A DNA stretch of 64,000 nucleotides from a virus. The stretch covers positions 152,700-216,699 of the IMG/VR virus record IMGVR_UViG_3300031857_000010, one strand, 5' to 3'. A model generated the notes under the pieces. The model saw only the letters and a list, made by a program, of their open reading frames with translations. It did no database searches and had not been told where the DNA came from. Each line of letters opens with the position of its first letter. Position 1 is the first letter of the stretch. Below, piece by piece: positions 46,183 through 63,984 of this stretch. Made by a program: the position numbers and the translations under genes.

Positions 46183-46212
46183 AAACCTTTTTTAGTTATA
46201 TTAGTATTGATT
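46183..46212 (+). promoter_or_regulatory. ECF-type phage promoter, copy A
   Basis: AAACC plus T-tract, then AGTATTGATT at the fixed 20-nt offset (AAAC-N16-xGTA core). Only plus-strand copy; 24 bp upstream of the lipoprotein gene and upstream of the sigma factor gene, so sigma may reinforce its own unit. Confidence 0.7.
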
Positions 46213-46236
46213 GTAAAGGAAGTAAAAAAACAATAA

Positions 46237-47088
46237 ATGAGCAAGATTTTAATTATACTGGTTCTTTTACTCAGGATCCCAACCTGCAGGAACGTTGATC
46301 ACGAATTTGTGGACGGGGAAGACATGAGCAAAAAGGAGCCTTATAAATATTATGAGCTTTGTCTTAGGTCCATGTTAACGAATCCGGATTCCATGAATTT
46401 TGGACTGGGACCGGTGGTTCCTCCTATTAACAGTTTAAATTCAAAAGTTTTCCATGATACATTAGTTGATCAGACTATTGAATTAAGGTTAATGACGGAT
46501 GACGGAATGAATATAGTATTTAGGAATTTGACCAATCCTGAGATTTATAATGATATTGAATCTTATGAATTCAAGGCTTATGATTCAAAAAATAATATTG
46601 TTTACCTATCACATAAAAAACAATATGGATACTTCAGGTTCTTTGGAGTCAGTTTAAATACCGGGAACCAGTTTACCGTATATGTTAATGATACTCGGTC
46701 ATCCAATGAAAAAATGTATTCTTGGAAATATTCCCCGGATATGGATTATTTGTTGAAGTCTGGTGATCTAGATAATGATATTTACGGTTGGGGTCTGGTT
46801 ACGCTAAAAAATGGACAGGAGGGTCAAGCGATGTTTGAAAGATATACTGAATTTGTGACTAATATTAAATGGGTGACTTTTGACCAATTCAGTTATGTTC
46901 TTACCAAGATTCCTTTCCGGGATGGATATAAGTATGATAAGGATTATGAATTTTATTATTCGTTGATGGAGGGGAATGCTCTTCCCGGGATTAGATTAAA
47001 CGGAGATTACCTGTATCCAGTTACATATATTTTGGATGTCAAAGGCCATTTAATATCAGAAAAGATGACTGAAGTTAGGATAAAATGA
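46237..47088 (+). CDS. Lipoprotein-like surface protein (283 aa)
   Basis: N-terminal lipobox-like RIPTC at about 13-17, then a beta-rich mature region without recognised domain (YYELCLRSM, YGYFRFFGVSLNTGNQFTVYV). GC content is higher than in the left half of the window. First gene after the ECF-type promoter at 46183. Confidence 0.62.
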   Translation: MSKILIILVLLLRIPTCRNVDHEFVDGEDMSKKEPYKYYELCLRSMLTNPDSMNFGLGPVVPPINSLNSKVFHDTLVDQTIELRLMTDDGMNIVFRNLTNPEIYNDIESYEFKAYDSKNNIVYLSHKKQYGYFRFFGVSLNTGNQFTVYVNDTRSSNEKMYSWKYSPDMDYLLKSGDLDNDIYGWGLVTLKNGQEGQAMFERYTEFVTNIKWVTFDQFSYVLTKIPFRDGYKYDKDYEFYYSLMEGNALPGIRLNGDYLYPVTYILDVKGHLISEKMTEVRIK

Positions 47089-47201
47089 CGGCATTTGACT
47101 CAATATGACAAGGTTTTTAACATTATGGTTAAAAAAGTTAGAAATATAACAATATAAAAATCAACAAGTTAGGAAAGACAAAGATTATTTATTCACATTG
47201 C

Positions 47202-47232
47202 TTGTCTATGTCATAAAAATAACAGATATTTG
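47202..47232 (+). promoter_or_regulatory. Housekeeping-type promoter of the sigma factor gene
   Basis: TTG (47202-47204), 20 nt, then GATATTTG, one base off the TAnnTTTG box. Would allow the host polymerase to start sigma production early. Confidence 0.45.
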
Positions 47233-47279
47233 TCTTCTAAGTTATTAATTAAGTTAAACAATATAAATCAACGAGGAAC

Positions 47280-47957
47280 ATGAAAAATTCAAGGAAGGAA
47301 AAAAAGGCCAAGTTTGCAGATAAGGATCTACAAGATCTTAAGATGCTAGAAGAAATCAAATCTGGAAATGTGAATGCATATGAGGTGATATACAACAGGT
47401 ATTACCGTTATATTCAGTATCACTGTTTTATGTCTGTCAAAGACCAGCAATTGGCCAATGATTTGACTGTAGAGATTTTGACAAAAATTTATTTAAATAT
47501 TGACAAATACTCGGTCAAGTATACTTTTAATTCTTGGGTGTGGAGTATTGTCAAGAATTACGTCGTAGATTATATAAGGAAGAATAAGAACGAACCAGTT
47601 AACAGCAATCGAAATGCATCGATCGCTATTCAGGAAACCAGAGATGAGGGATCTGAATTCAGCACAGTGTATTCGAACCAGTTGGATTCTGGAGATATTA
47701 ATCCGGAGGAATTGATGCAAGCCAAGTCTACAGAGAGGATACGTAGAGAATTTGTATTGAACTTGTTGAATGGTTTGAATGAGCGAGAGAGGATGATCAT
47801 CATTCATTATTACTTTGACGAGATGAGTTATGATGAGATTGCTGCTAAGCTTAACATTGGACTAAGCCTTATGAAGGTAACCTTGTTAAGGACCAAGGAG
47901 AAGCTCAAGAATAAGATCGGAAGTTTTGACAAGATTTCTCACCTGCTTGCAGCCTAA
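47280..47957 (+). CDS. Phage-encoded sigma-70 family factor, ECF-like
   Basis: 225 residues. Region 2 begins at about 20 with MLEEIKSGNVNAYEVIYNRY and the -10-binding FNSWVWSIVKNYVVDYIRK; a linker of about 50; region 4 has LNERERMIIIHYYFDEMSYD then EIAAKLNIGLSLMKVTLLR (helix-turn-helix). Region 1.1 and 3 are absent, so it is group IV (ECF) by architecture. It lies among nine copies of an ECF-style promoter (46-64 kb), its likely targets. Confidence 0.88.
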   Translation: MKNSRKEKKAKFADKDLQDLKMLEEIKSGNVNAYEVIYNRYYRYIQYHCFMSVKDQQLANDLTVEILTKIYLNIDKYSVKYTFNSWVWSIVKNYVVDYIRKNKNEPVNSNRNASIAIQETRDEGSEFSTVYSNQLDSGDINPEELMQAKSTERIRREFVLNLLNGLNERERMIIIHYYFDEMSYDEIAAKLNIGLSLMKVTLLRTKEKLKNKIGSFDKISHLLAA

Positions 47958-47971
47958 GCAACGGGTGATAT

Positions 47972-48439
47972 ATGAAAGAACTAAAAAGAATATTTAAAAG
48001 ATTAAAAAGATTTTTTGAAACGGATAGGTGGTTATTTCTGGATGATACCAGAGAGCCACCTATTCATTTAAAAAGAATATTCTATATTGTCCGTGATTAT
48101 GATGATTTTGTGGAGTACATTGAAACATATGGTATTCCGGAGATTATTTCCTTTGACCATGATTTAAATTTAGAGCATACTAATTTCTTTTTTGAGAATG
48201 GGGGTTTTAGGAATCCGCCAGATCCGAGATATGAGATTTTTAAATTTAAAACTGGATATGATTGTGCTTTATGGTTAATTGACTATTGTAAAAGGAACAA
48301 TAAAGAGTTAAAAAAGGTATTTGTACATAGTCATAATCCAATGGGTCAAAGAAACATTTACAACCTTATATGTAACTTTCAGAAAAAAGAATACGGTAAA
48401 ATAAACTGCAAAATAGTAAGATGGAAATACCAAAAATAG
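47972..48439 (+). CDS. cREC receiver-domain protein, second copy (155 aa)
   Basis: N-terminal basic stretch then FLDDTREP, ISFDHDLNLEH, TGYDCALWLID and FVHSHNPMGQRN, the full cREC signature as at 19505. Fourteen nt downstream of the sigma gene, so likely co-transcribed with it. Confidence 0.75.
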   Translation: MKELKRIFKRLKRFFETDRWLFLDDTREPPIHLKRIFYIVRDYDDFVEYIETYGIPEIISFDHDLNLEHTNFFFENGGFRNPPDPRYEIFKFKTGYDCALWLIDYCKRNNKELKKVFVHSHNPMGQRNIYNLICNFQKKEYGKINCKIVRWKYQK

Positions 48440-48567
48440 ATCCGAACTTAGACAATCAGATCAAGTTCGTAGAATTCATGATCGAGACACAGAATATTGA
48501 AATACTTGTGGCGATAAAAAACAGTCTTTTAGAACTAAAAAAGATAAAAGAAGAAAAAAAGATGTAA
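48421..48567 (+). CDS. Small coiled protein (48 aa)
   Basis: ORF overlapping the end of the cREC gene by 19 nt. Acidic N-terminus, Lys-rich helix at the end. Its stop codon lies within the TAACTTTG box of the next promoter. Confidence 0.5.
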   Translation: MEIPKIDPNLDNQIKFVEFMIETQNIEILVAIKNSLLELKKIKEEKKM

Positions 48568-48572
48568 CTTTG
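48565..48572 (+). promoter_or_regulatory. TAACTTTG -7 box upstream of the 48618 gene
   Basis: Matches TAnnTTTG; no clear TTTG 19 nt upstream. A leader with TACGTTTAAATT follows, a sequence also seen just before the starts of the 45838, 54294 and 57492 genes. Confidence 0.45.
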
Positions 48573-48617
48573 TGATAAGACATTACGTTTAAATTGAAAA
48601 ATCTAAAACTAAAAACT

Positions 48618-49058
48618 ATGTTTGAAATCATTAAAAACCTACCGGTACCTGAAAAAACAGTTGCATCTAAGATGCCAAAACGTGCTCCTAAATATCCATT
48701 TGCGGATATGGAGATTGGTGATTGTTTGGCCTTTAACGCAGAAAGTATTAAAGACCCAGTTTACAAAAATGTATATGGTTCAGCAATGGCATATGCTCGT
48801 CGTGTAAGAGAAGGTTACACATTCCGTTTCGGTAAAATCGAGGAAGGCAAGTTTGGTTGCTGGAAGATTGTCTCGACAAAAAATGTCAAAGTTGAAGAGC
48901 CAGAGAATAAGCGTAAACGCAATTCAACGATTAACATTACAAAAGACATGTTGATTTCAGCTTTAGAAAGTGAAGGTACATTGAATGGTGCTTCTCGTAT
49001 TTTGAATATTTCGAGTAGGACATTTAGTCGGTTGAAACAAAAATTTGAACTCGTATAA
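48618..49058 (+). CDS. DNA-binding-type phage protein with Fis-like HTH (146 aa)
   Basis: N-terminal KYPFADMEIGDCLAF and YARRVREGYTFRFGKIEEGKFGCWKI, a common phage domain, and a C-terminal HTH (TKDMLISALESEGTLNGASR then ILNISSRTFSRLKQKF) of the Fis type. Start is the ATG at 48618; the frame opens at a TTG at 48594. Likely a regulator. Confidence 0.72.
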   Translation: MFEIIKNLPVPEKTVASKMPKRAPKYPFADMEIGDCLAFNAESIKDPVYKNVYGSAMAYARRVREGYTFRFGKIEEGKFGCWKIVSTKNVKVEEPENKRKRNSTINITKDMLISALESEGTLNGASRILNISSRTFSRLKQKFELV

Positions 49059-49091
49059 GTATTTAACAACAATTTAAAAACAACTTCTAAA

Positions 49092-49763
49092 ATGAAAAAC
49101 ACTATTTTCTACGTTATTGCTTTTTTTGGTGTAGTAAGCTTGAGTAGCTGCTATACTACACAAAGTGTTCCTTACAATGATTACAAGTTCAGCTTGGTAG
49201 ATCAGCAAGGAAATGTCAAAGACACTGGTGATGCTTTGACTTACACTGATTCCACCATCATTGCCTCTTTCGCTGTTGGCAAGAAAGATATTTCTATGGT
49301 TATGAGAAATCAATCTTCCAGTACGATCAAGGTTCTATGGGACGAATCATTGTTTATTAAGAATGGTAATCCCGGAAAGGTGATGCATGCTGGAGTCAAA
49401 TTCACTGACCGCAATCAAGCACAGCCTCCAAGTGTGATTCCTGCGGGTACGACATTTGACGATGTAATTGTACCTACGGATAATGTTTATTGGAGAGAGG
49501 GTTATTACAGTAAGTACGGTTCATCTCCGGGTGGATGGGAAAAGAAAGATCTATTACCATCTTATACTTCTAAAGGTGATCAGTTCGGAGTGTTCATGCC
49601 AATGACTGTTGGTGGTACCACAAAGGAATATAATTTTAATTTCCGTGTGGAGGATACGAAAACTGTATACAAGCAGGAGAGAACCATGGATGTTGCTAAA
49701 ACAACTTGGTTGACAATTGGTCTGACAGTGGTGCCTCTAATTATTCTGTTGGGTTCATATTAA
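49092..49763 (+). CDS. Lipoprotein with C-terminal TM helix (223 aa)
   Basis: Lipobox SLSSC at about 16-20, beta-rich mature domain, C-terminal hydrophobic LTIGLTVVPLIILLGSY. Two anchors would place it in the inner membrane with the domain outside. Base composition is bacterial-like; acquisition from a host plausible. Confidence 0.68.
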   Translation: MKNTIFYVIAFFGVVSLSSCYTTQSVPYNDYKFSLVDQQGNVKDTGDALTYTDSTIIASFAVGKKDISMVMRNQSSSTIKVLWDESLFIKNGNPGKVMHAGVKFTDRNQAQPPSVIPAGTTFDDVIVPTDNVYWREGYYSKYGSSPGGWEKKDLLPSYTSKGDQFGVFMPMTVGGTTKEYNFNFRVEDTKTVYKQERTMDVAKTTWLTIGLTVVPLIILLGSY

Positions 49764-49787
49764 TAATTTAAATTAAAAAATATAGTT

Positions 49788-50453
49788 ATGGGAATTCTTT
49801 GTAAAATGTTGGATCACAAGAATGAAGCTATAAACTTCTGGGGTGAAAACTGCGAATATCTTTTGTTCAAATGCAAACGTTGTAATCATGAGGAGATCTT
49901 TTGTTCTTACGAAGGCAAAATTCTCAACAATGATGAGTTTGGAAAAAAGGTTTTAGACAAGATGATGAAAGACAAGGAATTCTCAAAAGCTTGTCATATC
50001 CACAGTCAGTTTGTAAAAGCTGAGCATAGCAATCCTTTTAATTTCAAAAAGCAAGAGGAGGAATATGAAAGGATCAGGAAGGAATTTAATTTGACGGGTT
50101 TAAAAAGACCAGCATGTCCAATTGAATTATTCCGTGCGGGATTGTGGAAGGACATAAAGAATGATTCTGGTACGGCAAAGAAAAAGTCAAATACCAAAAT
50201 CAAGACCAAACCTATTGTAAATGATCCGGAGCCGGATAATGAGCAGGGAGAGATTTACAATGTTTTCGAACCAGAAGACAATTCTTTTACCAACAAGGTC
50301 AAACCTATAAAATATAGTTTTGAATCTATCAGCAAGGGAGAGACTCTGGAAGAGCTTGAGAGATTAGAAAAGATCTATGCAGCTAGGGAGAATTATGAAA
50401 AGGCTGCTGATATTTACAAAAAGATTCAAAAGCTCAAAATGAACAAAAAGTAA
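49788..50453 (+). CDS. Protein with zinc site and UVR-like tail (221 aa)
   Basis: N-terminal C-x-x-C/C-x-x-C like site (CEYLLFKCKRCNHEEIFC) and a C-terminal LERLEKIYAARENYEKAADIYKKIQKLK resembling the UvrB/UvrC-type UVR helix pair. Middle is long and charged. Possible role in protein interactions of a repair or replication complex. Confidence 0.62.
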   Translation: MGILCKMLDHKNEAINFWGENCEYLLFKCKRCNHEEIFCSYEGKILNNDEFGKKVLDKMMKDKEFSKACHIHSQFVKAEHSNPFNFKKQEEEYERIRKEFNLTGLKRPACPIELFRAGLWKDIKNDSGTAKKKSNTKIKTKPIVNDPEPDNEQGEIYNVFEPEDNSFTNKVKPIKYSFESISKGETLEELERLEKIYAARENYEKAADIYKKIQKLKMNKK

Positions 50454-50480
50454 CCCTTAACCCAAACCACACCACGAAGA

Positions 50481-50509
50481 CCCGCAGGATTTATCTGCGG
50501 GTTTTTTTT
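50481..50509 (+). terminator. Terminator after the plus-strand operon
   Basis: Perfect CCCGCAG/CTGCGGG stem and an 8-T run. Ends the 46-50.4 kb transcript. Confidence 0.85.
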
Positions 50510-50541
50510 GTTTATTATAATATTATAATTAATTTTATTAA

Positions 50542-50937
50542 ATGGAATTCATAGAAAATAACTTTGAGATAGAGCATATTAATTTGACTGATGCAAATTA
50601 TATAAACTTAAATATAAATGATAAGCTGAAAGGTGTTCGTAGGAATCAATACGGTTTGGTCTTGTCAAAGATCAAATTAAAAAATAATGATGTTTACGAG
50701 ATAGTTTTAAATTCTAACTCTAACGATAGAGCTACTGTAAGGTCGTATGTTGATGGGGATGAAAAATTAGATTCCTATTCTATACAGGAATACTTTATTA
50801 ACGGAAAAAATAATTATTTAGAATTCAGTAATGAATCTTACTGTATGGTAATCAATTCAAATGAACCGATGAAAAACAAATATGTTTTTTCTGATTACCG
50901 GGATGCGATTGGATATTTAGAATCGCTTGAAAAATAA
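50542..50937 (+). CDS. Hypothetical protein (131 aa)
   Basis: Beta-rich (LKNNDVYEIVLNSNSND, ATVRSYVDGDEKL) with an acidic helical end. Last plus-strand gene before the minus-strand HNH gene; not recognised. Confidence 0.62.
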   Translation: MEFIENNFEIEHINLTDANYINLNINDKLKGVRRNQYGLVLSKIKLKNNDVYEIVLNSNSNDRATVRSYVDGDEKLDSYSIQEYFINGKNNYLEFSNESYCMVINSNEPMKNKYVFSDYRDAIGYLESLEK

Positions 50938-50947
50938 GTTGTGGTAA

Positions 50948-51421
50948 TTAAATAAAATTTAAAAATAATTCATCATCATACTTTGTGTGTTTTTCTGCAT
51001 GACAATTAGAACAAAGCATGATACATTTATCTAATTCTTTTTTGATAAATTCCCATGATTTGTGATTCATTTCAGCAATTGAAAAATCTTTTTCATCTGG
51101 ATTCAGATGATGAAATTCTAAAGCAGCTAAACTTTTAGAATAACCACAATCTAAACACTTCCCCCCTTTATATTCTACTGCTCTTTTTTTTAATCTAAAA
51201 CGTCTAATTCTCGTTATACATGTTGCACAACATTTTCTATTATGAGAATTTTCCTTCAATTTTTTATTACACAAAGCACAATTTATATTTTTAATTTTTA
51301 CTCTAAAAATTTTATGCTTTTTTAACCACTTAGCTATTGTTGTTCTATGAACATTGTATAATTTCCCAATTTCAATGTTAGTTTTACCTTCATTAATTAA
51401 TTTTTCCAAATCTTTTTTCAA
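50948..51421 (-). CDS. HNH homing endonuclease (157 aa)
   Basis: N-terminal resolvase-like HTH (TNIEIGKLYNVHRTTIAKWL), zinc finger CALCNKK...CCATC, and HNH core CLDCGYSKSLAALEFHHLNP...CIMLCSNCHAEKH. Free-standing mobile endonuclease lying next to a truncated tRNA 5' half (51470-51506), so it probably broke or replaced that tRNA. Confidence 0.85.
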   Translation of the reverse strand: MKKDLEKLINEGKTNIEIGKLYNVHRTTIAKWLKKHKIFRVKIKNINCALCNKKLKENSHNRKCCATCITRIRRFRLKKRAVEYKGGKCLDCGYSKSLAALEFHHLNPDEKDFSIAEMNHKSWEFIKKELDKCIMLCSNCHAEKHTKYDDELFLNFI

Positions 51422-51469
51422 AATATTTTTTAAAATAAATATTAAGAAAAAAAGAAAAATTACTTTTGG

Positions 51470-51506
51470 TATTCAAAAATTGCTCTACCAACTGAGCTAT
51501 ATTACC
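51470..51506 (-). pseudogene. Truncated tRNA (5' half only)
   Basis: Minus strand GGTAATATAGCTC, AGTTGG and GAGC are an acceptor 5' strand plus a full D arm, followed by an A/T stretch and ACCAAAAGTAAT instead of an anticodon arm. No T arm or TATTACC acceptor 3' strand lies on the far side of the adjacent HNH gene. The first base pairs overlap the stop of the 51502 gene. Confidence 0.6.
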
Positions 51507-51678
51507 TTTTACCTTCTATTATTACTTTTGGTTCTACTACTCCTTTTGATTCTAAGTATTTGACAGCGTTATAAATATTGTTATGAACTCTGTACGGTGT
51601 TCTAGGTATAAGGCCACATTTTGGTGGATACACATGAACGGAATCACTACAGGAAAAAGTAATAATTTTAGTTTCCAT
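51502..51678 (-). CDS. Hypothetical protein (58 aa)
   Basis: Short ORF (METKIITFSCSDSVHVYP..., VEPKVIIEGKR end) whose last codons overlap the truncated tRNA. The Lys-rich sequence ACCAAAAGTAAT in its end recurs 60 bp further in the tRNA remnant, perhaps marking the insertion point. Confidence 0.55.
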   Translation of the reverse strand: METKIITFSCSDSVHVYPPKCGLIPRTPYRVHNNIYNAVKYLESKGVVEPKVIIEGKR

Positions 51679-51688
51679 TTTTATTTGT

Positions 51689-51806
51689 AGTCAGGACAGG
51701 ATTCGAACCTGTATGAAGAGTATGTGTGTCTCTTCTCCTATGGGTTTACCTCAAGGGTTTCCATCTGCCATCGCACGTTGTAGCGTCTACCATTCCGCCA
51801 CCTGAC
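51689..51806 (-). ncRNA. tRNA-like RNA 3 (class II-like ends)
   Basis: Ends identical to those at 28958 and 33255. Centre has a GAAGAG/CTCTTC stem (variable-arm position) and ATGG/CCAT plus ACC/GGT pairs around a CTTGA loop, but no canonical anticodon loop. Confidence 0.58.
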
Positions 51807-51883
51807 TATTTGTTTTTAAAATATCTTGTAACGGCAATTATGCCTAATATACAGATACTTGAATAAAATATTATCCAAGCCAT
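51806..51883 (-). CDS. Possible 25-aa membrane peptide
   Basis: MAWIIFYSSICILGIIAV then a basic end; its stop touches the tRNA-like 5' end. Very short, listed with low confidence. Confidence 0.3.
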   Translation of the reverse strand: MAWIIFYSSICILGIIAVTRYFKNK

Positions 51884-51898
51884 AATTTTAATTTTTGT

Positions 51899-52051: not shown

Positions 52052-52064
52052 CATTTAATTTATG

Positions 52065-52137: not shown

Positions 52138-52143
52138 AGTATT

Positions 52144-52562: not shown

Positions 52563-52563
52563 A

Positions 52564-53050: not shown

Positions 53051-53794
53051 TCATTTATTAATAACTTTCTCTCTTCCCTTTTTCTTTTGATAACCAGTCC
53101 AACCTTGCTTAGCTAACAGTGATTTAGCAGCTGCAGCCTTAGACCCTTTAGGTTGAGTTCCATGAATTAATAGAGCGAAAGAATGATTATAATCATATGC
53201 ATGAGAATCGTCATGATCTATTTCCAATCCTTTTTCTATAGCTTCCTGTTCACTGTATACAACCTCTGCATACTTAAGATTGTATTGATCGATCAATTTA
53301 TCAAGCTTACCACCTTTTGAAGCGTTCAGTTTAAGGTTAACTGGGATATCATTAATACGATTGATCCAGTATTGAAGACTTTTTGTGTAAGCATAAAAGA
53401 TACGATCAGGATTGTTTTTTGCAACAACAACCCAAGCGTCAAAGTAATTTTGATTAAAAAAGTCACCAGCTACATGAAGACGAACGATTTTGCCTTCACC
53501 GCTTTTTTTAATTTTAGGTAGACTTTGTTGAATCTTTTGCGACATTTCTTCAACAGTTTTAATATTCTTTAATTCGTTGAAGTTGTGATTTCTTTGTTCA
53601 CGTACTGCAGGATAAAGACTTTCTTGTGAAGCTGAAAAGCATCGAAATTGAGTGTTTGCCCCGTCAGTAATTTTACCCGTCACCGGATCAGCTTTAGAAT
53701 AGCATTCGTTAGCGAAGGGGCAGCTCCAACCACTGGCCAGAGAGAAAGAAATAATGTTTTTGAGTTTAGCGTTACCCGCAGAGAATTTTAACAT
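53051..53794 (-). CDS. Gene product 88 (GP88) family protein
   Basis: 247 residues with SGWSCPFANECYSKADPVTG, FRCFSASQES and VRLHVAGDFFNQNYFDAW...DRIFYAYTKS, the GP88 phage domain. Paired cysteines suggest a structural metal. Function unknown. Preceded by the ECF-type element at 53811. Confidence 0.8.
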   Translation of the reverse strand: MLKFSAGNAKLKNIISFSLASGWSCPFANECYSKADPVTGKITDGANTQFRCFSASQESLYPAVREQRNHNFNELKNIKTVEEMSQKIQQSLPKIKKSGEGKIVRLHVAGDFFNQNYFDAWVVVAKNNPDRIFYAYTKSLQYWINRINDIPVNLKLNASKGGKLDKLIDQYNLKYAEVVYSEQEAIEKGLEIDHDDSHAYDYNHSFALLIHGTQPKGSKAAAAKSLLAKQGWTGYQKKKGREKVINK

Positions 53795-53810: not shown

Positions 53811-53840
53811 AATCAATACGGATTTAAATTAAAAACGTTT
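53811..53840 (-). promoter_or_regulatory. ECF-type phage promoter, copy B
   Basis: AAACG plus T-tract, then CGTATTGATT at the 20-nt offset, 17 bp upstream of the GP88 gene start. Confidence 0.72.
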
Positions 53841-54293: not shown

Positions 54294-55154
54294 TTAAGCG
54301 AGTACCTCAGCCAGTACAAGTTGGTCACGTTTGAGCTTAGCCTCAGGAAGCTCTTTCGTATTACAGTTATAGATAGCGTAGTTCAAAGCATTATAAACAG
54401 TATACAATGTTTGAGGACTACCTTCATGATTCACCAGTTCACCGTTCTCGTTTACATAGGTCAAAGAACCTTTTATTGAAGTTTCCATATTAAAACGTTC
54501 AACAGCAGTTTCCAGAATGTTTTTCGAGAATTTTAGTTTCTCTGAGACTTGAAGAATCTTACTTACATCAGCTTTAATCTGATTCATTTGTTCATAAACC
54601 TCCATATCTTGTTTAACTTCAGAAAGGAAAAGTTGAACAGAATTAATAATTTCAGAATTAGAAGCAATACTCAAGTCCATACCATCTTCAGCAGCAGCAG
54701 CTTTACGGTGCTTTTTTGAGATGTTTACAGTGTTTCCTACTGGACGAGTAAGTCCGTTAGAGCAAACTACTCGATAAAAACCAAACTTCAGGGTTGTTTT
54801 AAGGGTTCCATCATAAGAATTCCAGACAGAGAATTTTGGTAGAATATCATTAACAGTCAAAGATTTAACTCGATCCCGTATAATATAATCTACATAGAAC
54901 TTTGTCCCGTCAACAATTGAAATTTTACGGTCAAAGGGAATTTTCTGGTCCTTCATCATTTTCTCCAGTGGTTTGTAAAGTGTTTCATTTTCACGGAGGT
55001 TGTAGGTGGAGGAGCAAAAACTTAGGATGTTACCATGTTCATCCAGAATAGCATGGTCATTTGCACGAGGAAATTTTTTACCGGGAAGGATTGAACCTAG
55101 TTCAACTTTGGATACCGGTGCGAACAGTTTTTTTAAGGTCTCAGAGTTTTGCAT
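54294..55154 (-). CDS. DUF932 family phage protein
   Basis: 286 residues: FAPVSKVELGSILPGKKFPR, FGFYRVVCSNGLTRP and the long helical C-terminal half match DUF932 proteins found in phages and plasmids. Function unknown. Higher GC than neighbours. Transcribed from the ECF-type element at 55220 with a 66-nt leader. Confidence 0.78.
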   Translation of the reverse strand: MQNSETLKKLFAPVSKVELGSILPGKKFPRANDHAILDEHGNILSFCSSTYNLRENETLYKPLEKMMKDQKIPFDRKISIVDGTKFYVDYIIRDRVKSLTVNDILPKFSVWNSYDGTLKTTLKFGFYRVVCSNGLTRPVGNTVNISKKHRKAAAAEDGMDLSIASNSEIINSVQLFLSEVKQDMEVYEQMNQIKADVSKILQVSEKLKFSKNILETAVERFNMETSIKGSLTYVNENGELVNHEGSPQTLYTVYNALNYAIYNCNTKELPEAKLKRDQLVLAEVLA

Positions 55155-55219
55155 GTTTTTTTAATTTAGAATTTAAACGTAGTTTTTTAATTTAAGTTAC
55201 AGTGATTTATTTCTTTTGT

Positions 55220-55249
55220 TATCAATACGGAACAAAAAGAAAAAGGTTT
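55220..55249 (-). promoter_or_regulatory. ECF-type phage promoter, copy H
   Basis: AAACC plus T-tract, then CGTATTGATA at the 20-nt offset, upstream of the DUF932 gene. Shares the preceding AATTTAGTC with copy I. Confidence 0.7.
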
Positions 55250-55439: not shown

Positions 55440-56060
55440 TTAGTTAGCAATCAGGGTTTCAACAAGCGTATTAAGAGAATTGTTTTGGGACTTGCTGATT
55501 TTCTTACCTAAGAAATTCATAATTAGTTCCTTGATTTTCTCTTTACGAGCGTTGTTCTCTGGCTGGGTATTGTTTACCACAGATACCGTAGGTTCTGTTT
55601 TTTCTTTGCGGGGACGACCACGACCACGCTTAGGTTCGGATACCACTGGTTCTTTTTTCTTTGACGGAGCCGTATCTTCCTTGTTTTCTTTCAAGCGACG
55701 GTCAATCTTTGAATTGATCAATTGCTCAGCCATTTTAACGAATTCCTTTTCGTCTTTAGCTTTACGTAAGATGTTCAAAGCATCTGTTCCACGGATTTTT
55801 CCAGCTTTAACATAAGACTTCATGCGTGGAGTCATAGAGGCCAGATTGATCAAGTTGTAAACATGAGGCATGGACAACTTGGTTTCTTTCTGGATGATGG
55901 TAGGCTTTATATTATGTTTGGAGGAAAGCTGCTTTACAAGTGTAGCCTCCTTCAACATAGAAAGTTTAACACCATCATTTTTCTTTTTCAGTTGAGAGAA
56001 AATCTCTGCAACATCTGCCGAAAATTTCGGCTTCACGGATTTCGCTTTTGTTCGTGCCAT
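55440..56060 (-). CDS. ParB-HTH / AT-hook DNA-binding protein (206 aa)
   Basis: N-terminal half is a KorB/ParB-like HTH region (LVKQLSSKHNIKPTIIQKET, LSMPHVYNLINLASM, IRGTDALNILRKAKD). A linker with EPKRGRGRPRKEK is an AT-hook. A final helical domain (KIKELIMNFLGKKI) follows. The N-terminal ParB nuclease/CTPase domain is missing. Possible partition, nucleoid or transcription factor, and a candidate reader of the GTCAAAKAC repeats (speculative). Confidence 0.7.
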   Translation of the reverse strand: MARTKAKSVKPKFSADVAEIFSQLKKKNDGVKLSMLKEATLVKQLSSKHNIKPTIIQKETKLSMPHVYNLINLASMTPRMKSYVKAGKIRGTDALNILRKAKDEKEFVKMAEQLINSKIDRRLKENKEDTAPSKKKEPVVSEPKRGRGRPRKEKTEPTVSVVNNTQPENNARKEKIKELIMNFLGKKISKSQNNSLNTLVETLIAN

Positions 56061-56877: not shown

Positions 56878-57111
56878 TTAATTTTCTTGATTTAAATTAT
56901 ATACTTCTTCCTCATCAAGTCCGTGTTGAACTACGGCTTGGTCTTGGATGTGATCAATCAATGCGATGATACCTTCAAGAGCTTCATACTCTTTAGTTTT
57001 TGTAATAGGATTACTATTTGAATCTGTTCTGTATTGAAGTTCCAAAAGAGCTTGTTTTTGGTCTTTTAGAAGTTTCAAATCAACATTTTGTATTTTGATA
57101 TCGTATTGCAT
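56878..57111 (-). CDS. Hypothetical helical protein (77 aa)
   Basis: Helical (VDLKLLKDQKQALLELQYR), acidic end (HGLDEEEVYNLNQEN). Driven by the ECF-type element at 57126; leader of the 56281-57111 unit. Confidence 0.63.
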   Translation of the reverse strand: MQYDIKIQNVDLKLLKDQKQALLELQYRTDSNSNPITKTKEYEALEGIIALIDHIQDQAVVQHGLDEEEVYNLNQEN

Positions 57112-57125: not shown

Positions 57126-57155
57126 GTTCAGTACGTTTTTAATTAAAAAAGGTTT
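57126..57155 (-). promoter_or_regulatory. ECF-type phage promoter, copy I
   Basis: AAACC plus T-tract, then CGTACTGAAC at the 20-nt offset; the -10-like half is the most divergent of the nine. 15 bp upstream of the 56878 gene. Confidence 0.65.
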
Positions 57156-57491: not shown

Positions 57492-57731
57492 TTAAATTGT
57501 CTCACCCATAAATTCATAGATGATTGTTTTTTGATCTTGTTCAGATAAAATATCCCAAACATCATCATCGACGCAAGTTATCTTATCCATGAAGTCATCT
57601 ACATTACGTAGTTCTTGTAATCGTCCATCTACAAAGTAAGAAGTTTGTAGACCTGTATTTGGGTTTTGTAATTTGACTGTAGGGAGAATACCCGCTACAA
57701 ATTCATTTCTATTTTCTGGATTACGTGGCAT
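57492..57731 (-). CDS. Hypothetical protein (79 aa)
   Basis: PRNPENRNEFVAGILPTVKL start and an acidic helical end. TACGTTTAAATT leader precedes the ATG, as in other genes here. Confidence 0.6.
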   Translation of the reverse strand: MPRNPENRNEFVAGILPTVKLQNPNTGLQTSYFVDGRLQELRNVDDFMDKITCVDDDVWDILSEQDQKTIIYEFMGETI

Positions 57732-57777
57732 ATCTTTTTTTAATTTAAACGTAAATTTTTATTTTTTGTTACTTATT

Positions 57778-58269: not shown

Positions 58270-58272
58270 ATG

Positions 58273-58656
58273 TTATGCTGTTATTGATTTTTGAATGTAC
58301 AGACCGTAGTCCACTGATATAACACTGTCAAATTTCTTTCCGTCCACTATTTCACCGTTATAAACCCAATTAGGTTGAACCCTTGGATTATAACGAATTC
58401 TCTGCTCGTTATCTTTTTCGAAGTTTTCAGTTCGAATCTCAATTTCCTTACAAAGGACCCAAGCACACACTGTTTTATTAGCACCGTCAAATATCTTCTG
58501 AGCGGTCGTTTTGTAATTCTTCAGTATACAATCATGCATGTTTAATTGAACATCTGTAGGATGATGGTATTCTATTTTACCATCCGGATACTCGATTTTC
58601 CACTTCATGTAGTTCTTACCGGTACCTAAATTGAATCTTACTTTTATACTTTTCAT
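58273..58656 (-). CDS. Hypothetical protein (127 aa)
   Basis: Beta-rich start (SIKVRFNLGTGKNYMKW), polar middle, VISVDYGLYIQKS end. ATGA-coupled to the 58653 gene. Confidence 0.62.
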   Translation of the reverse strand: MKSIKVRFNLGTGKNYMKWKIEYPDGKIEYHHPTDVQLNMHDCILKNYKTTAQKIFDGANKTVCAWVLCKEIEIRTENFEKDNEQRIRYNPRVQPNWVYNGEIVDGKKFDSVISVDYGLYIQKSITA

Positions 58657-58874
58657 GCGTCTATTAGGTCTAATTCAGTTAAAATATTTTTTTCTTCTTC
58701 AGTCAGTTCGTCGAAACATTCTACATCACAATACCATAATGAGAATGGTACTTCTGAAAAGAATTCCTCAACTTCAGATTCAAGGTTTTCTTTTGTTCTA
58801 CCGTCGATCCGGAATGTGCGGGAAACGTTTGTAGAACTGTTTTTGTCAAAGACATGGATGGTTACCGTTTTCAT
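58653..58874 (-). CDS. Hypothetical protein (73 aa)
   Basis: Short acidic protein (SEVEEFFSEVPFSLWYCDVE). One nt between it and the 55-aa gene upstream. Confidence 0.6.
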   Translation of the reverse strand: MKTVTIHVFDKNSSTNVSRTFRIDGRTKENLESEVEEFFSEVPFSLWYCDVECFDELTEEEKNILTELDLIDA

Positions 58875-58875
58875 A

Positions 58876-59043
58876 TTAATCTTCTTGTAGATATTGTTCT
58901 TCTAAGTATAGTGCTATTGTTTCTGGACTTTCACCTTCATTCACCTCCACAACATCGATGTGTTTATGAATTAGTTCTATTGCTTTTTCTTTTCCGAAAC
59001 CGTGGTTTTTCATTAGAGCATCTACAACTTGTTTATGTTCCAT
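58876..59043 (-). CDS. Small UBA-like helical protein (55 aa)
   Basis: Short ORF MEHKQVVDALMKNHGFGKEK...AIELIHKHIDVV, a three-helix pattern reminiscent of UBA-type bundles. First gene after the ECF-type element at 59058. Confidence 0.58.
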   Translation of the reverse strand: MEHKQVVDALMKNHGFGKEKAIELIHKHIDVVEVNEGESPETIALYLEEQYLQED

Positions 59044-59057
59044 AACTATCATTTTTT

Positions 59058-59087
59058 AATCAATACGATTTTAAATTAAAAAGGTTT
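59058..59087 (-). promoter_or_regulatory. ECF-type phage promoter, copy C
   Basis: AAACC plus T-tract, CGTATTGATT at the 20-nt offset, 15 bp upstream of the 55-aa gene that starts at 59043. Confidence 0.75.
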
Positions 59088-59131
59088 AAAATTTATAAAA
59101 AAAAATATATTTATAAGTAAATAAGCTTTTA

Positions 59132-59791
59132 ATGGGAAATATTGAAAAATTAAGGTTTTTGATTAGGTCATTGATTCAAGAAACGATCATGACCAAACAT
59201 TTTATGGATAGAAGGTTTTTAAGACTGGATAGTAGTGATACTGATTTTCCGGGAACTTATCCTAAATTTAGAGAAACAGTAGATGACGCTATTAATTTTT
59301 TATGGAAAAAAGTGGATTTTGACAAAGACCTAAGACTGGCAATTGAATTAAAATCCCCACAGACATTCACAGCATTTGATAAGGAAAAAAAAGAATTTTC
59401 TAAGGGTGATAGAATTTACTTCTTAGTTCAGCATGGTAATGAACTAGAGACCTTAGTTTTTGATAGAAAGGATAAAGTTGATTTAAGGGTTGACTACTAT
59501 GTTCCTTTTGTAGAATTAAAGAATTTTGTTGTAAACAACAATATTTCTTATTTGACCAGTAAAGAGATTAAACAAATATTAAAAAAACCAGTACCTGTAT
59601 CTACTCAACCAAAAGAATTAATTTATTTGGTAAACGGTAAAAAATGGGTTTTTGACAAAGAAGGTTCTAAGTTTTTCGAAAGAAATAAAAAAGAAAATTC
59701 TTATGATGTTTACGACATACTGGATGATAAAATTGAAAATGTCAAATTAACTCAACAACAAAAAGATGAAATATTATCTTACTTGCTATAG
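59132..59791 (+). CDS. Hypothetical protein (219 aa), plus strand
   Basis: LRFLIRSLIQETIMTKHFMDRR at the start, beta-rich middle (YFLVQHGNELETLVFD), helical end. Lone plus-strand gene; overlaps the convergent gene at 59779 by 13 nt. Not recognised. Confidence 0.6.
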   Translation: MGNIEKLRFLIRSLIQETIMTKHFMDRRFLRLDSSDTDFPGTYPKFRETVDDAINFLWKKVDFDKDLRLAIELKSPQTFTAFDKEKKEFSKGDRIYFLVQHGNELETLVFDRKDKVDLRVDYYVPFVELKNFVVNNNISYLTSKEIKQILKKPVPVSTQPKELIYLVNGKKWVFDKEGSKFFERNKKENSYDVYDILDDKIENVKLTQQQKDEILSYLL

Positions 59792-60150
59792 TAATATTTA
59801 ACATTTTCAAGAAAACTCCACTCTCTTAAACTTAAGTTTTTACTACCAATATCATTAACTTTTTCTAGAACATCATTAAGATATAATACTTCTTTTTCTG
59901 GTACTAGTGCTTTTACATTTTTCTCGTACCCGTTTTCTTTAATGTATATTTTAAGTTTTTCTATTGAGTCGTCATACACATCGCAGTATGCTACCTGTTT
60001 ACCTTCCTCGTGATTAGTTCTTTCAAAAAAATGCCATGCCTCCTTCAAGAAGGCAAGTAAAATATCCTCTGACCTTGCGATTATCAAGATATTAGTCCAA
60101 TCACACCATCCTATTTTAACCAAATCTACTGAAGAAGGATTATCGTTCAT
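59779..60150 (-). CDS. Hypothetical protein (123 aa)
   Basis: The frame opens at 60198, but the ATG at 60150 (MNDNPSSVDLVKIGWCDW) follows the upstream stop directly (TAAAATG), so it is used. Helical; WHFFERTNHEEGK. Not recognised. Confidence 0.6.
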   Translation of the reverse strand: MNDNPSSVDLVKIGWCDWTNILIIARSEDILLAFLKEAWHFFERTNHEEGKQVAYCDVYDDSIEKLKIYIKENGYEKNVKALVPEKEVLYLNDVLEKVNDIGSKNLSLREWSFLENVKYYYSK

Positions 60151-60151
60151 T

Positions 60152-60529
60152 TTAACTCTTTTCAATTTTTTGGATGATATATTCATCCACATTACCACCT
60201 ACAATACAACCATTACTTGAAATCAAATCAGATGATGCTATGTTATTTGACATTTCCTCAATAGCATCCTCCAAAGTAGATTCTGAATCCATTTCAATTT
60301 CAACAACCATCTTTACCTCTACAAATGCTTTCTTTGTTTTTGGTGTATAATCACAAATGTTATCATCACATTCAGTCCAAATCCTGAAATCATTTGTTGC
60401 TACACCAACATACACTCCAAGTTTATCTTGACAATAATCTTTGAAAACAATAGGAATATTCACATCTGAGATATTTAATTCTCTGCATAGGTCAATAATA
60501 CCTTGTGGAATTTCAAGTTCTATTTTCAT
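60152..60529 (-). CDS. Hypothetical protein (125 aa)
   Basis: MKIELEIPQGIIDLCRELNI start (frame opens at 60550; the ECF-type element at 60545 overlaps that stretch, so the ATG at 60529 is right). Beta-rich acidic middle. Not recognised. Confidence 0.62.
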   Translation of the reverse strand: MKIELEIPQGIIDLCRELNISDVNIPIVFKDYCQDKLGVYVGVATNDFRIWTECDDNICDYTPKTKKAFVEVKMVVEIEMDSESTLEDAIEEMSNNIASSDLISSNGCIVGGNVDEYIIQKIEKS

Positions 60530-60544
60530 AATATTTTGTTTTTT

Positions 60545-60574
60545 AGTCAATACGGATTTAAAATAAAAAGGTTT
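60545..60574 (-). promoter_or_regulatory. ECF-type phage promoter, copy D
   Basis: AAACC plus T-tract, CGTATTGACT at the 20-nt offset; overlaps the false upstream extension of the 60152 gene, which helps fix the start codon. Confidence 0.72.
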
Positions 60575-60577
60575 AAA

Positions 60578-60988
60578 TTATTCCATAATTTCATTAACTA
60601 TTTTTGCCGAAGAAACAACCATAGTTTTTATAACCTTACCATCAACATATCTAGATAGGGAGAACTCATCAACTGAATCCAGATGTTCTTGAACTTTGTC
60701 AAATATCTCATTATATTCTTTTTCTGACAAAAGCGTTCCACAAGTCCATCCAACATTGCCAATCTCTTTTATTCGATAACAGCCCCAAGGGTTTTCTACT
60801 GAGTTAACTTCCCAATCATCCTCCGTCAATTCAGCCAAACTCTTTTCACGATTTTTAATGGTCACACTCTTTGTATAACCACAATCTGAACAGTGAACAT
60901 ATTCTTCACCGGTTTTGTAATAAAAATCATCGTAGCAATCAGGAGACTTGCAATTAGGACATTCGATGTAATCAATAACTGAACCCAT
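60578..60988 (-). CDS. Zinc-ribbon protein (136 aa)
   Basis: CPNCKSPDC and HCSDCGYTK form a four-Cys zinc ribbon in the first 40 residues; the rest has CYRIKEIGNVGWTCGTLLS. Similar zinc-ribbon phage proteins exist; function unknown. Preceded by the ECF-type element at 61011. Confidence 0.68.
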   Translation of the reverse strand: MGSVIDYIECPNCKSPDCYDDFYYKTGEEYVHCSDCGYTKSVTIKNREKSLAELTEDDWEVNSVENPWGCYRIKEIGNVGWTCGTLLSEKEYNEIFDKVQEHLDSVDEFSLSRYVDGKVIKTMVVSSAKIVNEIME

Positions 60989-61010
60989 ATTTTTAAGTTT
61001 TAAAGTTTAA

Positions 61011-61040
61011 TATCAATACGGATTTAAAAAAAAAAGGTTT
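61011..61040 (-). promoter_or_regulatory. ECF-type phage promoter, copy E
   Basis: AAACC plus a 10-T tract, CGTATTGATA at the 20-nt offset. The upstream terminator's T-run merges with the promoter's. Confidence 0.72.
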
Positions 61041-61045
61041 AAAAA

Positions 61046-61073
61046 AAAGGTGAACTTTTTTTAGTTCACCTTA
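61046..61073 (-). terminator. Terminator after the 61097 lipoprotein gene
   Basis: AAGGTGAAC/GTTCACCTT stem, loop TTTTTTTA, T-run on the minus strand. Strong. Confidence 0.78.
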
Positions 61074-61096
61074 ATTTAGTCGGGGGAGAGATATTA

Positions 61097-61291
61097 TTAG
61101 TTTGCACTAACTGTATCTACCACAGTTGCAGAATCAGCAACAGTTGCAGTTGAATCTACGGTTTCTACAACCGTTGAATCAACAGCCGTAGAATCTACAG
61201 TGGCCGTTTCTTCAGTAGCAGATCCACCGCCACATGAAGTAAGTGCAAAAGTTGTTGCAACAAGACTTAGGATAACAAATACTTTTTTCAT
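61097..61291 (-). CDS. Low-complexity lipoprotein (64 aa)
   Basis: MKKVFVILSLVATTFALTSC lipobox, then a Thr/Val/Ser/Asp repeat (VDSTAVDSTVV). The frame opens at 61345; the ATG at 61291 is the first with a signal-like start. Intrinsically disordered mature part. Confidence 0.64.
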   Translation of the reverse strand: MKKVFVILSLVATTFALTSCGGGSATEETATVDSTAVDSTVVETVDSTATVADSATVVDTVSAN

Positions 61292-61413
61292 TTTATTTTT
61301 ATATAAATTTAGTTTGTGAGTACATAAATAGCATATAATTTTCACAGAATAAAGAATTAAAATGAATTTAATTTAATTTGTTAATAACTTTTTGATTATT
61401 AACAAGTTATGTT

Positions 61414-61803
61414 TTATTTAAGTACGAACAGGGTGGTTAATACTACTATTATTCCAGTGTAAAGCATATTCTTTTTCTTTGCCCGATTTATTTGACCATG
61501 ATAATTTATAATCAAGGAATTTTTCATTTCCAATGAATCACGACAAGTAGAACACTCATCGAGTTGCATTTGAAGTTTCTGCTTCAATGATTTATTCTCA
61601 TTTTGTTGAAAGGTCATATTTTCAGAAAGTTCATCAACCTTTTTTTCATTTAGATCACCACGAATCAAATCTTGTTTGATAAAGGATAAATATCTCATTG
61701 GAAAACAAACCAAGCTATCATCAGCGATGATCATATCGTTCTGTGAAAAACTCTTTGAGTTCGACAGCATCACGACCACGAGCAATAGGAAGATTTTTTT
61801 CAT
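61414..61803 (-). CDS. Exported coiled protein with C-terminal TM (129 aa)
   Basis: Signal peptide (about 20 residues, no lipobox Cys), coiled-coil middle with CSTCRDSLEMK, C-terminal hydrophobic end. Its start lies 82 nt inside the 61721 gene in another frame, the arrangement of spanin-like pairs. Confidence 0.66.
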   Translation of the reverse strand: MKKIFLLLVVVMLSNSKSFSQNDMIIADDSLVCFPMRYLSFIKQDLIRGDLNEKKVDELSENMTFQQNENKSLKQKLQMQLDECSTCRDSLEMKNSLIINYHGQINRAKKKNMLYTGIIVVLTTLFVLK

Positions 61804-62221
61804 TTTTCAAAGTTTTAATTTTTTTAGTATTTGTGTTTTTTGCTTCAGTTTTGACTGGGATTGGTGTTGGGTTCTCGAAGGGATGAGATTGTATTTTCAA
61901 TTTTGGTTTTGAAGCAATCACATTGTTTAGAGAATCAATGATAACATGTAGAGAATAAATCGAATCTACATTAGTATTATTCATTTCCTCCATCTTCTTG
62001 TTTAAATCATTCAGTTGCTTAACTGTAACGATTAGGTCTTTGACTTGGTCACTTGTATCAGCAGTACTCGATGAAGGAATAACAACTTTGTCGTCGAATA
62101 TTACTCTATCAGAAGTATTTCTGTACTTGTATTTATTATAGAGTCTATTTTTATTCTTATAAACATAGTACATACCGAATATCAGAAGTAACCCGGTAAT
62201 AGTCAAGACGAATTTTTTCAT
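61721..62221 (-). CDS. Membrane-anchored coiled protein (166 aa)
   Basis: N-terminal TM (about 5-23), coiled coil (DLIVTVKQLNDLNKKMEEMNN), Pro/Lys-rich tail. Overlaps the 61414 gene by 83 nt in a different frame. Inner-membrane spanin-like topology; identification tentative. Confidence 0.64.
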   Translation of the reverse strand: MKKFVLTITGLLLIFGMYYVYKNKNRLYNKYKYRNTSDRVIFDDKVVIPSSSTADTSDQVKDLIVTVKQLNDLNKKMEEMNNTNVDSIYSLHVIIDSLNNVIASKPKLKIQSHPFENPTPIPVKTEAKNTNTKKIKTLKNEKNLPIARGRDAVELKEFFTERYDHR

Positions 62222-62262
62222 GTATGAAAGTTTTAAAATTCAAATGCAAAAATAATAATATT

Positions 62263-62838
62263 TTATTTTTTAAGACCCAAATCTTCAAAATTTGTATTTA
62301 ATATTTCTTGACCTTCCTGAAGTTTTGTTTTGATTTGATTATCAATGAATTGCTGCATCTTTTGAACACCATATACCCTAACCATTTGTTCTAATGACAA
62401 ACCTCCTTTAAATCCTGAACGTGTATAATTGTCCCACAAACCCCACAAAATTTCTTTTTCAGACTGTTTTGCAATCTTTTTATATACTTTTTCTTTTTGT
62501 TTTTCGTCGGTGAGATGCTCGATCAGAGACTCGATAACTGAGTGGTCAGAAATTTTGCTTTCATTTTCGTAAAAGTTCCATCCTAATTCATTATACATTC
62601 GACTCCTCCAATTATGTGCTTGCAGAAGTTGCAACAGTTTTTGTTCACTTTCCTTGGAGATATGAATATCAGCTTCACCACCCCATCCATCATTGTTGTA
62701 ATAGCCAATATTCTTTTTGTCTAGCCAAATGTCACAAAACATTCCGGCCAAATCGTGTCCAATTCCAAGCTTAATGTTTTTAAGGACTACACGGTCCTTA
62801 ATTTCTTGAGGAAGTTCAAGTCTATTAATATTTCCCAT
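62263..62838 (-). CDS. Hypothetical protein (191 aa)
   Basis: MGNINRLELPQEIKDRVVLK start (the frame opens at 62859, overlapping the ECF-type element, so the ATG at 62838 is used). Mixed alpha/beta with YYNNDGWGGEADIH. Not recognised. Confidence 0.62.
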   Translation of the reverse strand: MGNINRLELPQEIKDRVVLKNIKLGIGHDLAGMFCDIWLDKKNIGYYNNDGWGGEADIHISKESEQKLLQLLQAHNWRSRMYNELGWNFYENESKISDHSVIESLIEHLTDEKQKEKVYKKIAKQSEKEILWGLWDNYTRSGFKGGLSLEQMVRVYGVQKMQQFIDNQIKTKLQEGQEILNTNFEDLGLKK

Positions 62839-62853
62839 TTTCTTGTGTTTTTT

Positions 62854-62883
62854 AATCAATACTGATTTTTTTAAAAAAGGTTT
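62854..62883 (-). promoter_or_regulatory. ECF-type phage promoter, copy F
   Basis: AAACC plus T-tract, AGTATTGATT at the 20-nt offset; 16 bp upstream of the 62263 gene. Confidence 0.7.
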
Positions 62884-62927
62884 ATAATTTTTAATTTTTT
62901 TTTGGATTAGATATTTGACAAGATTTT

Positions 62928-62957
62928 AGATATACGACTTTAAAAAACTAATTTACA
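62928..62957 (-). promoter_or_regulatory. Second-class promoter-like element, copy 3
   Basis: TGTAAA, 15 nt, CGTATATCT on the minus strand, about 90 bp upstream of the 62263 gene and distinct from copy F of the ECF-type promoter. Confidence 0.5.
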
Positions 62958-62977
62958 TTTTTAATTTAAATTAAAAA

Positions 62978-63008
62978 CCCACCCCCTGAAATAATCACAG
63001 GAGGTGGG
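62978..63008 (-). terminator. Terminator after the intron-containing tRNA
   Basis: CCCACC/GGTGGG stem with inner CCTG/CAGG and a T-run (GGGTTTTTAA) on the minus strand. Confidence 0.75.
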
Positions 63009-63026
63009 AAAACATGATTTTTTTGG

Positions 63027-63302
63027 TGGGCCCAGTAGGACTTGAACCTACGACCTGCGGATTATGCTTACCACTATAGCTTTCACCACCCTCACGGTTT
63101 GTGGTCTGGACTTTGTCTTCATCCTCATCATTACATGTTCGGATGGTTGCCGTTAAGCCTCTACACCTTCCCGATAATCTGGGCTTGGCTCGGCGTTGGG
63201 ATTTTACACCGTTCACCGAATTTGACAACATACTACCATAAAATTACTTCTATGGCGACCCTAATTTAAGTCCGATGCTCTAACCAACTGAGCTATGGGC
63301 CC
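63027..63302 (-). tRNA. tRNA (anticodon CAT, Met or Ile2) interrupted by a group I intron
   Basis: Acceptor GGGCCCA/TGGGCCC with encoded CCA, D arm GCTC/GAGC with AGTTGGTTA, T arm TTCAAGT. After removal of the 202-nt intron the loop reads CTCATAA (anticodon CAU). Own housekeeping-type promoter (63336-63366) and terminator (62978). Met and lysidine-Ile are not distinguishable by sequence alone. Confidence 0.85.
63067..63268 (-). other. Group I intron (cyanobacterial tRNA-intron type)
   Basis: The 5' exon ends ...GGACT and pairs with GGTC at the intron's guide (U-G pair at the splice site). Core elements are visible: GCCGAGCCAAGCC (Q-type), GAAGGTGTAGAGGCT (R-type), ACGGCAACC and GAAGACAAAGTCC (S-type). 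The intron ends in G and has no ORF. Insertion is between U33 and C34 or very close to it. Confidence 0.8.
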
Positions 63303-63335
63303 TTTTCCCGGTCAACGCATTTAATCAGGAAAGAG

Positions 63336-63366
63336 ATGCAAATGTAGTTATTATTTGATAAAATCC
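63336..63366 (-). promoter_or_regulatory. Housekeeping-type Bacteroidota promoter of the intron tRNA
   Basis: TTTG, exactly 19 nt, TACATTTG on the minus strand, about 35 bp upstream of the tRNA. The best TTTG-N19-TAnnTTTG match with that of the tRNA cluster. Confidence 0.7.
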
Positions 63367-63375
63367 AAAATCAAT

Positions 63376-63591
63376 TTATCGGTACAGAATTACAAAATCA
63401 CCGAAATAAGAGTCAAATACTTTGACCAAATTCTCATAATCACCAGACATCATTTCTTCTCTGATTTTATTTGAGTCCAAATCCAATTGTTTGGAAAGTC
63501 GATTTGCTACCCCAATCAAATGAAAAGCATTTCCTTCAGGACCGGTCAAATCAATTTCTATTTTATCTTTTTTTGGTTTTTCCTTAATCAT
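63376..63591 (-). CDS. Hypothetical protein (71 aa)
   Basis: Lys-rich start (MIKEKPKKDKIEIDLTGPEG) then helix-rich. ATGA overlap with 63588. Confidence 0.6.
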   Translation of the reverse strand: MIKEKPKKDKIEIDLTGPEGNAFHLIGVANRLSKQLDLDSNKIREEMMSGDYENLVKVFDSYFGDFVILYR

Positions 63592-63941
63592 ACAATATCT
63601 ATTGTTTCAGGGTTCTTAATCATATCTTCTAATTCCTCAACCAAATAAATTAATCCATAGGTTGAAACATCACGGAACTCTATGTTACGAGTATCATAAC
63701 CCGTATCTAATAAACATAATTCACCATCCGTTGAAATTGCACCAATTACTTCGTTAGATTGGTCATCAATATAACTATGTATAAAACCCTGAGTTAATTG
63801 AATGTTTCCTTCAGGATTTTCTTCACTATCTGTTAGTTTCACATAAAGTTCTTTTACTTCCTCCCGACGAGCAAGTAGGGTTTTTACAACTTCATCTCTC
63901 AAGGAGGCTGCTTCCTTTCTAAATTCGATTGCTGATTTCAT
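63588..63941 (-). CDS. Hypothetical protein (117 aa)
   Basis: Helical N-terminus (FRKEAASLRDEVVKTLLARR) and a beta-rich acidic C-terminal half (DGELCLLDTGYDTRNIEF). Behind the ECF-type element at 63955. Unrecognised. Confidence 0.62.
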   Translation of the reverse strand: MKSAIEFRKEAASLRDEVVKTLLARREEVKELYVKLTDSEENPEGNIQLTQGFIHSYIDDQSNEVIGAISTDGELCLLDTGYDTRNIEFRDVSTYGLIYLVEELEDMIKNPETIDIV

Positions 63942-63954
63942 ATTATTGTTTTTT

Positions 63955-63984
63955 AATCAATACGAATCGAATTAAAAAAGGTTT
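63955..63984 (-). promoter_or_regulatory. ECF-type phage promoter, copy G
   Basis: AAACC plus T-tract, CGTATTGATT at the 20-nt offset, 13 bp upstream of the 63588 gene. Confidence 0.75.

Follow-up and report, generated by a model that had tools for sequence, protein, structure and literature searches.

The window analysed here, a 64,000-nt stretch (positions 152,700–216,699) of virus record IMGVR_UViG_3300031857_000010, comes from what appears to be a T4-like megaphage of Bacteroidota and encodes an extracytoplasmic function (ECF) sigma factor inside a block of uniform 30-bp elements, termed class A, that have the architecture of ECF-type promoters. Some fifty such elements lie in the phage genome, and the phage's own sigma factor probably reads them, an assignment drawn from sequence and predicted structure. 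The sigma factors described from phages such as the T4-like and SPO1-like groups are mostly RpoD-like or minimal, while ECF sigmas are known as stress regulators of bacteria. Some fifty uniform ECF-type promoters beside an ECF-type factor, in a T4-like megaphage of Bacteroidota, would add a new form to the known phage sigma factors with promoters of their own, and a search of the open-access literature brought up no paper on ECF regulons of phages.

A block of fifty uniform elements before genes

All nine elements that a first-pass annotation had placed in the window were found, each with a gene start downstream in the same direction, 13–24 nt away in seven cases. The only plus-strand copy in the window, at 46183–46212, lies 24 nt before the open reading frame (ORF) 46237–47088 and heads the sigma-gene unit. 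Those on the minus strand lie at 53811–53840 (16 nt before a GP88-like ORF, 53051–53794), 55220–55249 (65 nt before a DUF932 ORF, 54294–55154), 57126–57155 (14 nt before ORF 56878–57111), 59058–59087 (5 nt before a 58-aa ORF, 58876–59052), 60545–60574 (15 nt before ORF 60152–60529), 61011–61040 (22 nt before ORF 60578–60988), 62854–62883 (15 nt before ORF 62263–62838) and 63955–63984 (13 nt before ORF 63588–63941). Positions 1–46 kb of the window hold none, as had been noted. The motif AAACC...CGTA first given for them stands as a consensus and fails as an invariant: AAACG stands at 53811, and AGTA takes the place of CGTA in two sites.

The feature runs on past the end of the window, and a composite genome (C coordinates) was built from the 216,699-bp record and two others, G001 and G002, which are overlapping records of the same phage from different metagenomes. 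G001 overlaps the record's end with 99.66% identity over 20.6 kb, and G002 overlaps the end of G001 with 99.96% identity over 12.4 kb. The outer ends of the composite (G000:1–501 and G002:219402–222069) carry related tandem repeats (about 75–83%), so that the genome is probably circular, closed through the repeat, and about 448 kb long.

A position weight matrix built from the nine window sites scored these at 32–41 bits in the whole 216,699-bp record, the next best match reaching 13.7 bits. The composite contains 50 class A sites (25–40 bits; next best 11 bits; maximum in ten first-order Markov genomes 14 bits), all within C198,882–245,130, a 46-kb block that makes up one tenth of the genome. 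The count of nine given at first holds for the window and the record, but the whole feature is larger. The class A consensus is AAACC-T-tract-N-[CA]GTATTGAT, with the architecture TTAAACCTTTTT-N10-CGTATTGAT, i.e. AAAC-N16-CGTA. AAAC, GTA and TTGA are nearly invariant across the 50 sites, the spacing is fixed, and TT directly precedes AAAC in more than 90% of them. Scored by spacing in the upstream regions of this phage, AAC-N16-CGT gave 37 matches, against 0.5 at other spacings.

An ATG opening a frame of at least 40 aa lies on the same strand 0–31 nt downstream of 47 of the 50 sites (median 15 nt), against 10% expected by position (binomial p about 1e-43) and 1 of 50 when the sites are flipped; the three plus-strand sites each face a plus-strand gene. 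The genome-wide motif search that the annotation had named as a check thus returned copies clustered before genes in one block, and not scattered at random positions. Most genes of this block are small ones of unrecognised function.

Class A elements as ECF-type promoters

The likeness to promoters of Bacillus subtilis SigW that was seen at first sight is borne out: AAAC-N16-CGTA matches the SigW consensus TGAAAC-N16,17-CGTA, extended to CGTAT (PMC2375139). Independent evidence comes from G023, a 73-kb fragment of a related phage that was found through its 79%-identical pyruvate phosphate dikinase (PPDK) and carries homologues of 10 block genes (37–85% identity). Among the upstream regions of G023, 16 of 73 have Bacteroidota sigma-A promoters (TTTGG...TAnnTTTG; TTTG-N-TAnnTTTG), a -33/-7 type documented for this phylum (PMC6847099), whereas class A carries neither sigma-A element (TTTG about 20 nt before TAnnTTTG). 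The clearest swap pair sets C232322, behind class A, against G023:72081, to which it is 75% identical (TTTGGTATATAAGAAAAATAGTTTTATATTTG). Since homologues of block genes stand behind sigma-A promoters in G023, the class A elements replaced promoters, and one promoter class has been exchanged for another across the gene block. Architecture, orientation, position and this swap together make a strong case that class A elements are ECF-type promoters.

It is very improbable that they are instead binding sites of a repressor or partition protein, or translation signals. A ParB-HTH protein is indeed encoded in the block (55440–56060), but the element is asymmetric and bipartite, with fixed spacing, a degenerate spacer and gene-directed orientation at 47 of 50 sites; its distance to the ATG varies from 2 to 141 nt, and homologous genes have sigma-A promoters in the relative. 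Orientation and variable ATG distance were the grounds for rejecting the translation-signal and partition-site readings.

Of the T4-like relatives read, only the sister species (G006/G011) shares with this phage a strong AAC-N16-CGT signal; G026 has four such sites. Class A was not found in other IMG/VR contigs beyond apparent chance matches. Nor was a class A regulon found in GTDB genomes, where the 60 matches of one strict scan were scattered and lay for the most part within coding sequence.

A two-domain ECF sigma factor and its operon

The 225-aa product of 47280–47957 (plus strand), flagged initially as ECF-like, is a genuine ECF sigma factor with regions 2 and 4 only. Pfam detected Sigma70_r2 at residues 37–103 (5.6e-9) and r4_2 at residues 160–209 (3.8e-12), and no region 1.1 or 3; the ECF superfamily model TIGR02937 scored 90 bits against a cut-off of 43, and the closest solved structure is B. 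subtilis SigW (5wuq, E 1.2e-14). In the AlphaFold model (mean pLDDT 73, pTM 0.45), a disordered linker (residues 105–146) connects two helical domains. Foldseek ranked SigW and sigma-E highest for this model, with low overall TM scores because the model does not fix the domain arrangement. A SigW orthologue it is not, given scores below the NCBIfam equivalog cut-offs (80.5 versus 209 bits and 69.6 versus 243). The phage has one ECF gene, and a genome-contig scan found no relatives of its product.

The sigma gene sits in a plus-strand unit headed by the class A copy at 46183. A 283-aa ORF (46237–47088, no Pfam match) is the first gene of the unit, and a cREC receiver-domain protein (47972–48439, plus strand; PF20274, 9.9e-22) adjoins the sigma gene; neither of these neighbours matched an anti-sigma family. 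The first intrinsic terminator listed on this strand after the promoter lies at 50476–50506. With no terminator before it, positive feedback through the 46183 copy is plausible, and the unit would be laid out like an operon that activates itself. Immediately upstream of the sigma gene, at 47202–47232, a weak site of sigma-A type, TTG-N20-GATATTTG with one mismatch, was recognised by eye. A scan of the sigma region for sigma-70 promoters of E. coli type stayed at chance level, and RNA folding of the leader gave nothing unusual.

A second, dispersed ECF-type class

De novo word counts disclosed a further ECF-type class, class B, with the form TGTAAC-N16-CGTTTAAAT. Its eleven sites (24.7–38.8 bits) are dispersed over the composite at C69655, C122819, C126116, C140644, C158143, C207868, C210440, C282350, C327749, C380146 and C424955. 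Within the window, all on the minus strand, class B elements lie at 5444–5477 (16 nt before a 114-aa ORF, 5083–5427), at 57741–57774 (before ORF 57492–57731) and at 55169–55202, between the class A site at 55220 and the DUF932 gene and 14 nt before the latter, which thus has both classes in tandem. Their distance to the ATG is similar to that of class A. Class B is kept in the sister species (77% nucleotide identity), including before the second of a neighbouring pair of Bacteroidota-type RpoD-like sigma genes (C67805 and C68774; G000:67805–69631, minus strand, outside the window). The first of these genes has a host-type promoter, TTG-N20-TATATTTG, and a host-type class TTG-N18-21-TAHHTTT also occurs in the genome. 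A survey of 11 Bacteroidota genomes revealed no excess of class B over the control, a sample too small to exclude a host regulon. With a single ECF gene and two ECF-type classes, either another reader may exist for at least one class or one sigma reads both.

Which sigma factor reads class A

We consider it probable that the phage ECF sigma (47280–47957) reads class A. The sigma gene lies within the class A block and its operon carries a class A site; this linkage and this promoter, together with the resemblance to SigW and the failure to find a class A regulon in GTDB genomes, favour the assignment. The most likely reader is accordingly the phage sigma rather than a host ECF sigma.

Several points weigh against this view or limit it. 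There is a class B but no second ECF gene to go with it, so that something else may read at least one ECF-type class. The -10 element CGTTA found in Crassvirales phages with homologous sigmas is closer to class B than to class A. No ECF gene was detected in the sister species or in PPDK-carrying T4-like relatives, including G023, although these records are fragments and the absence is weak; the sister-species records exclude the block region, and co-variation of sigma and motif falls outside the comparison. An immediate-early block would moreover require prior synthesis of the sigma or its delivery in the virion, and the sole site directly upstream of its gene is the weak sigma-A-like one.

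From the same Crassvirales -10 element one could argue that the phage sigma reads class B, leaving class A, as an early class, to a host ECF sigma or another factor. In this phage and the sister species alike, the second RpoD-like sigma gene stands behind class B, which recalls a sigma cascade; the G023 homologues of block genes have the look of early genes; and Bacteroides thetaiotaomicron has 50 ECF sigmas (PMC12596196). This arrangement nevertheless appears unlikely: the GTDB scan turned up no class A regulon, the promoter of the sigma operon is class A and not class B, and the closest solved structure is SigW, whose consensus fits class A. By eye, the loop of regions 2.3–2.4 (TFNSWVWSI) is also nearer to that of SigW (KFSTWLYRI) than to that of Crassvirales (SFEMWLKTI).

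A single sigma could also read both classes, strength or timing differing through the sequence after the -10 element. The common register AAC-N16-CGT, often with a T-tract, the similar ATG distance, the single ECF gene and the tandem before the DUF932 gene fit such dual reading. It seems quite improbable all the same, since the -10 elements (CGTATTGA in class A, CGTTTAAA in class B) are tightly conserved and mutually exclusive, which suggests two readers.

Proposed mechanism and timing

If the phage ECF sigma reads class A, it would bind host core RNA polymerase, with region 4 reading AAAC and region 2 reading CGTA, turn on about 50 transcription units in the 46-kb block and activate its own operon through the 46183 copy. 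T4-late-like motifs (N-TATTTAT-A/T) precede 98 ORFs outside the block and only 2 inside. Their near absence from the block and the host sigma-A promoters before the G023 homologues suggest early or middle expression. Were the block immediate-early, the sigma could be started up from the sigma-A-like site at 47202–47232 or delivered with the virion.

A bolder version, possible though doubtful, holds that the whole host-takeover region has moved from host sigma-A, as in the relative, onto the phage's own ECF class; a weak host promoter would supply the first sigma, or the virion would inject it, and early transcription would be largely independent of host sigma-A. Should the phage sigma indeed govern class A, its ECF regulon would be unusual in size and uniformity. 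Sigma and promoters would form a naturally orthogonal pair for Bacteroidota, and the block would show clearly how one promoter class can replace another over a run of genes.

Other features of the genome

Two other proteins were weighed as sigma candidates. The product at C32496 is possibly T4 gp55-like, which comparison with PDB structures did not confirm, and a weak region 2 match in a 749-aa protein (C116069) gained no support from Pfam. The PPDK (or phosphoenolpyruvate synthase) gene is full-length and lies at window positions 23258–25657 on the minus strand; it has relatives of 49–81% identity in many virus records. A cluster of at least 13 tRNA genes occupies window positions 1113–2658, with further tRNAs at 28957, 33254, 51688, 51897 and 52064. 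Unusually long Rfam tRNA matches at 28957–29064, 33254–33354 and 51688–51807 were missed by ARAGORN. At window positions 63022–63066, 45 bp are 93% identical to Prevotella Lak megaphages and resemble a tRNA 3' end, with no tRNA called. An intein-like insertion seems to split the terminase large subunit (G000:74322–77063).

Comparison with known systems

Phage sigma factors with promoter classes of their own are already known (PMC7824862). One comparable group is that of the T4-like (group 2) jumbo phages with sigma factors but without RNA polymerase, with which this phage has in common a T4-type terminase, RpoD-like sigmas, a T4-late-like motif and no RNA polymerase beta domain found in the search for one; for that group the review describes minimal helix-turn-helix and RpoD-like sigmas, leaving ECF factors unmentioned (PMC7824862). 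Large lytic phages, among them Listeria phage CKA15, likewise have early regions with many homogeneous promoters, but these resemble host SigA promoters (PMC12282133), whereas those of the block here are ECF-type.

Comparison with CRASSVIRALES yielded homologues of the sigma (24–34% identity) that carry the annotation sigma-W in phages of the Crassvirales. When the upstream regions of Crassvirales with such homologues were pooled and freed of duplicates, AAC-N16-CGTTA was counted nine times and the N17 form eight times, against 0–3 for other spacings, and because of this excess phages with this sigma family appear to tend towards ECF-type promoters. At Crassvirales loci L133–L138 and L145–L177, many genes are preceded by a putative promoter class, GAAC-N16/17-CGTTA(TAG); no description of this class was found in the open-access literature searched. 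The Crassvirales 'RNA polymerase sigma-W factor' phages (e.g. cr1_1, cr10_1) therefore resemble the present one in a homologous ECF sigma with ECF-type promoters in its carriers, and differ in genome size (about 100 kb), in the -10 element CGTTA and in far fewer sites in the stretches read; the class A assignment would offer a testable function for the 'sigma-W' genes of these gut phages.

The closest bacterial counterpart is B. subtilis SigW, alike in its two-domain ECF architecture, the AAAC -35 element, the 16-nt spacing, the CGTAT -10 element and its rank as best solved-structure match, yet only about 21–22% identical to the phage sigma in structural alignment. In contrast to SigW, the factor described here is phage-borne, has no anti-sigma recognised nearby and is accompanied by promoters in which an extended TTGAT follows CGTA.

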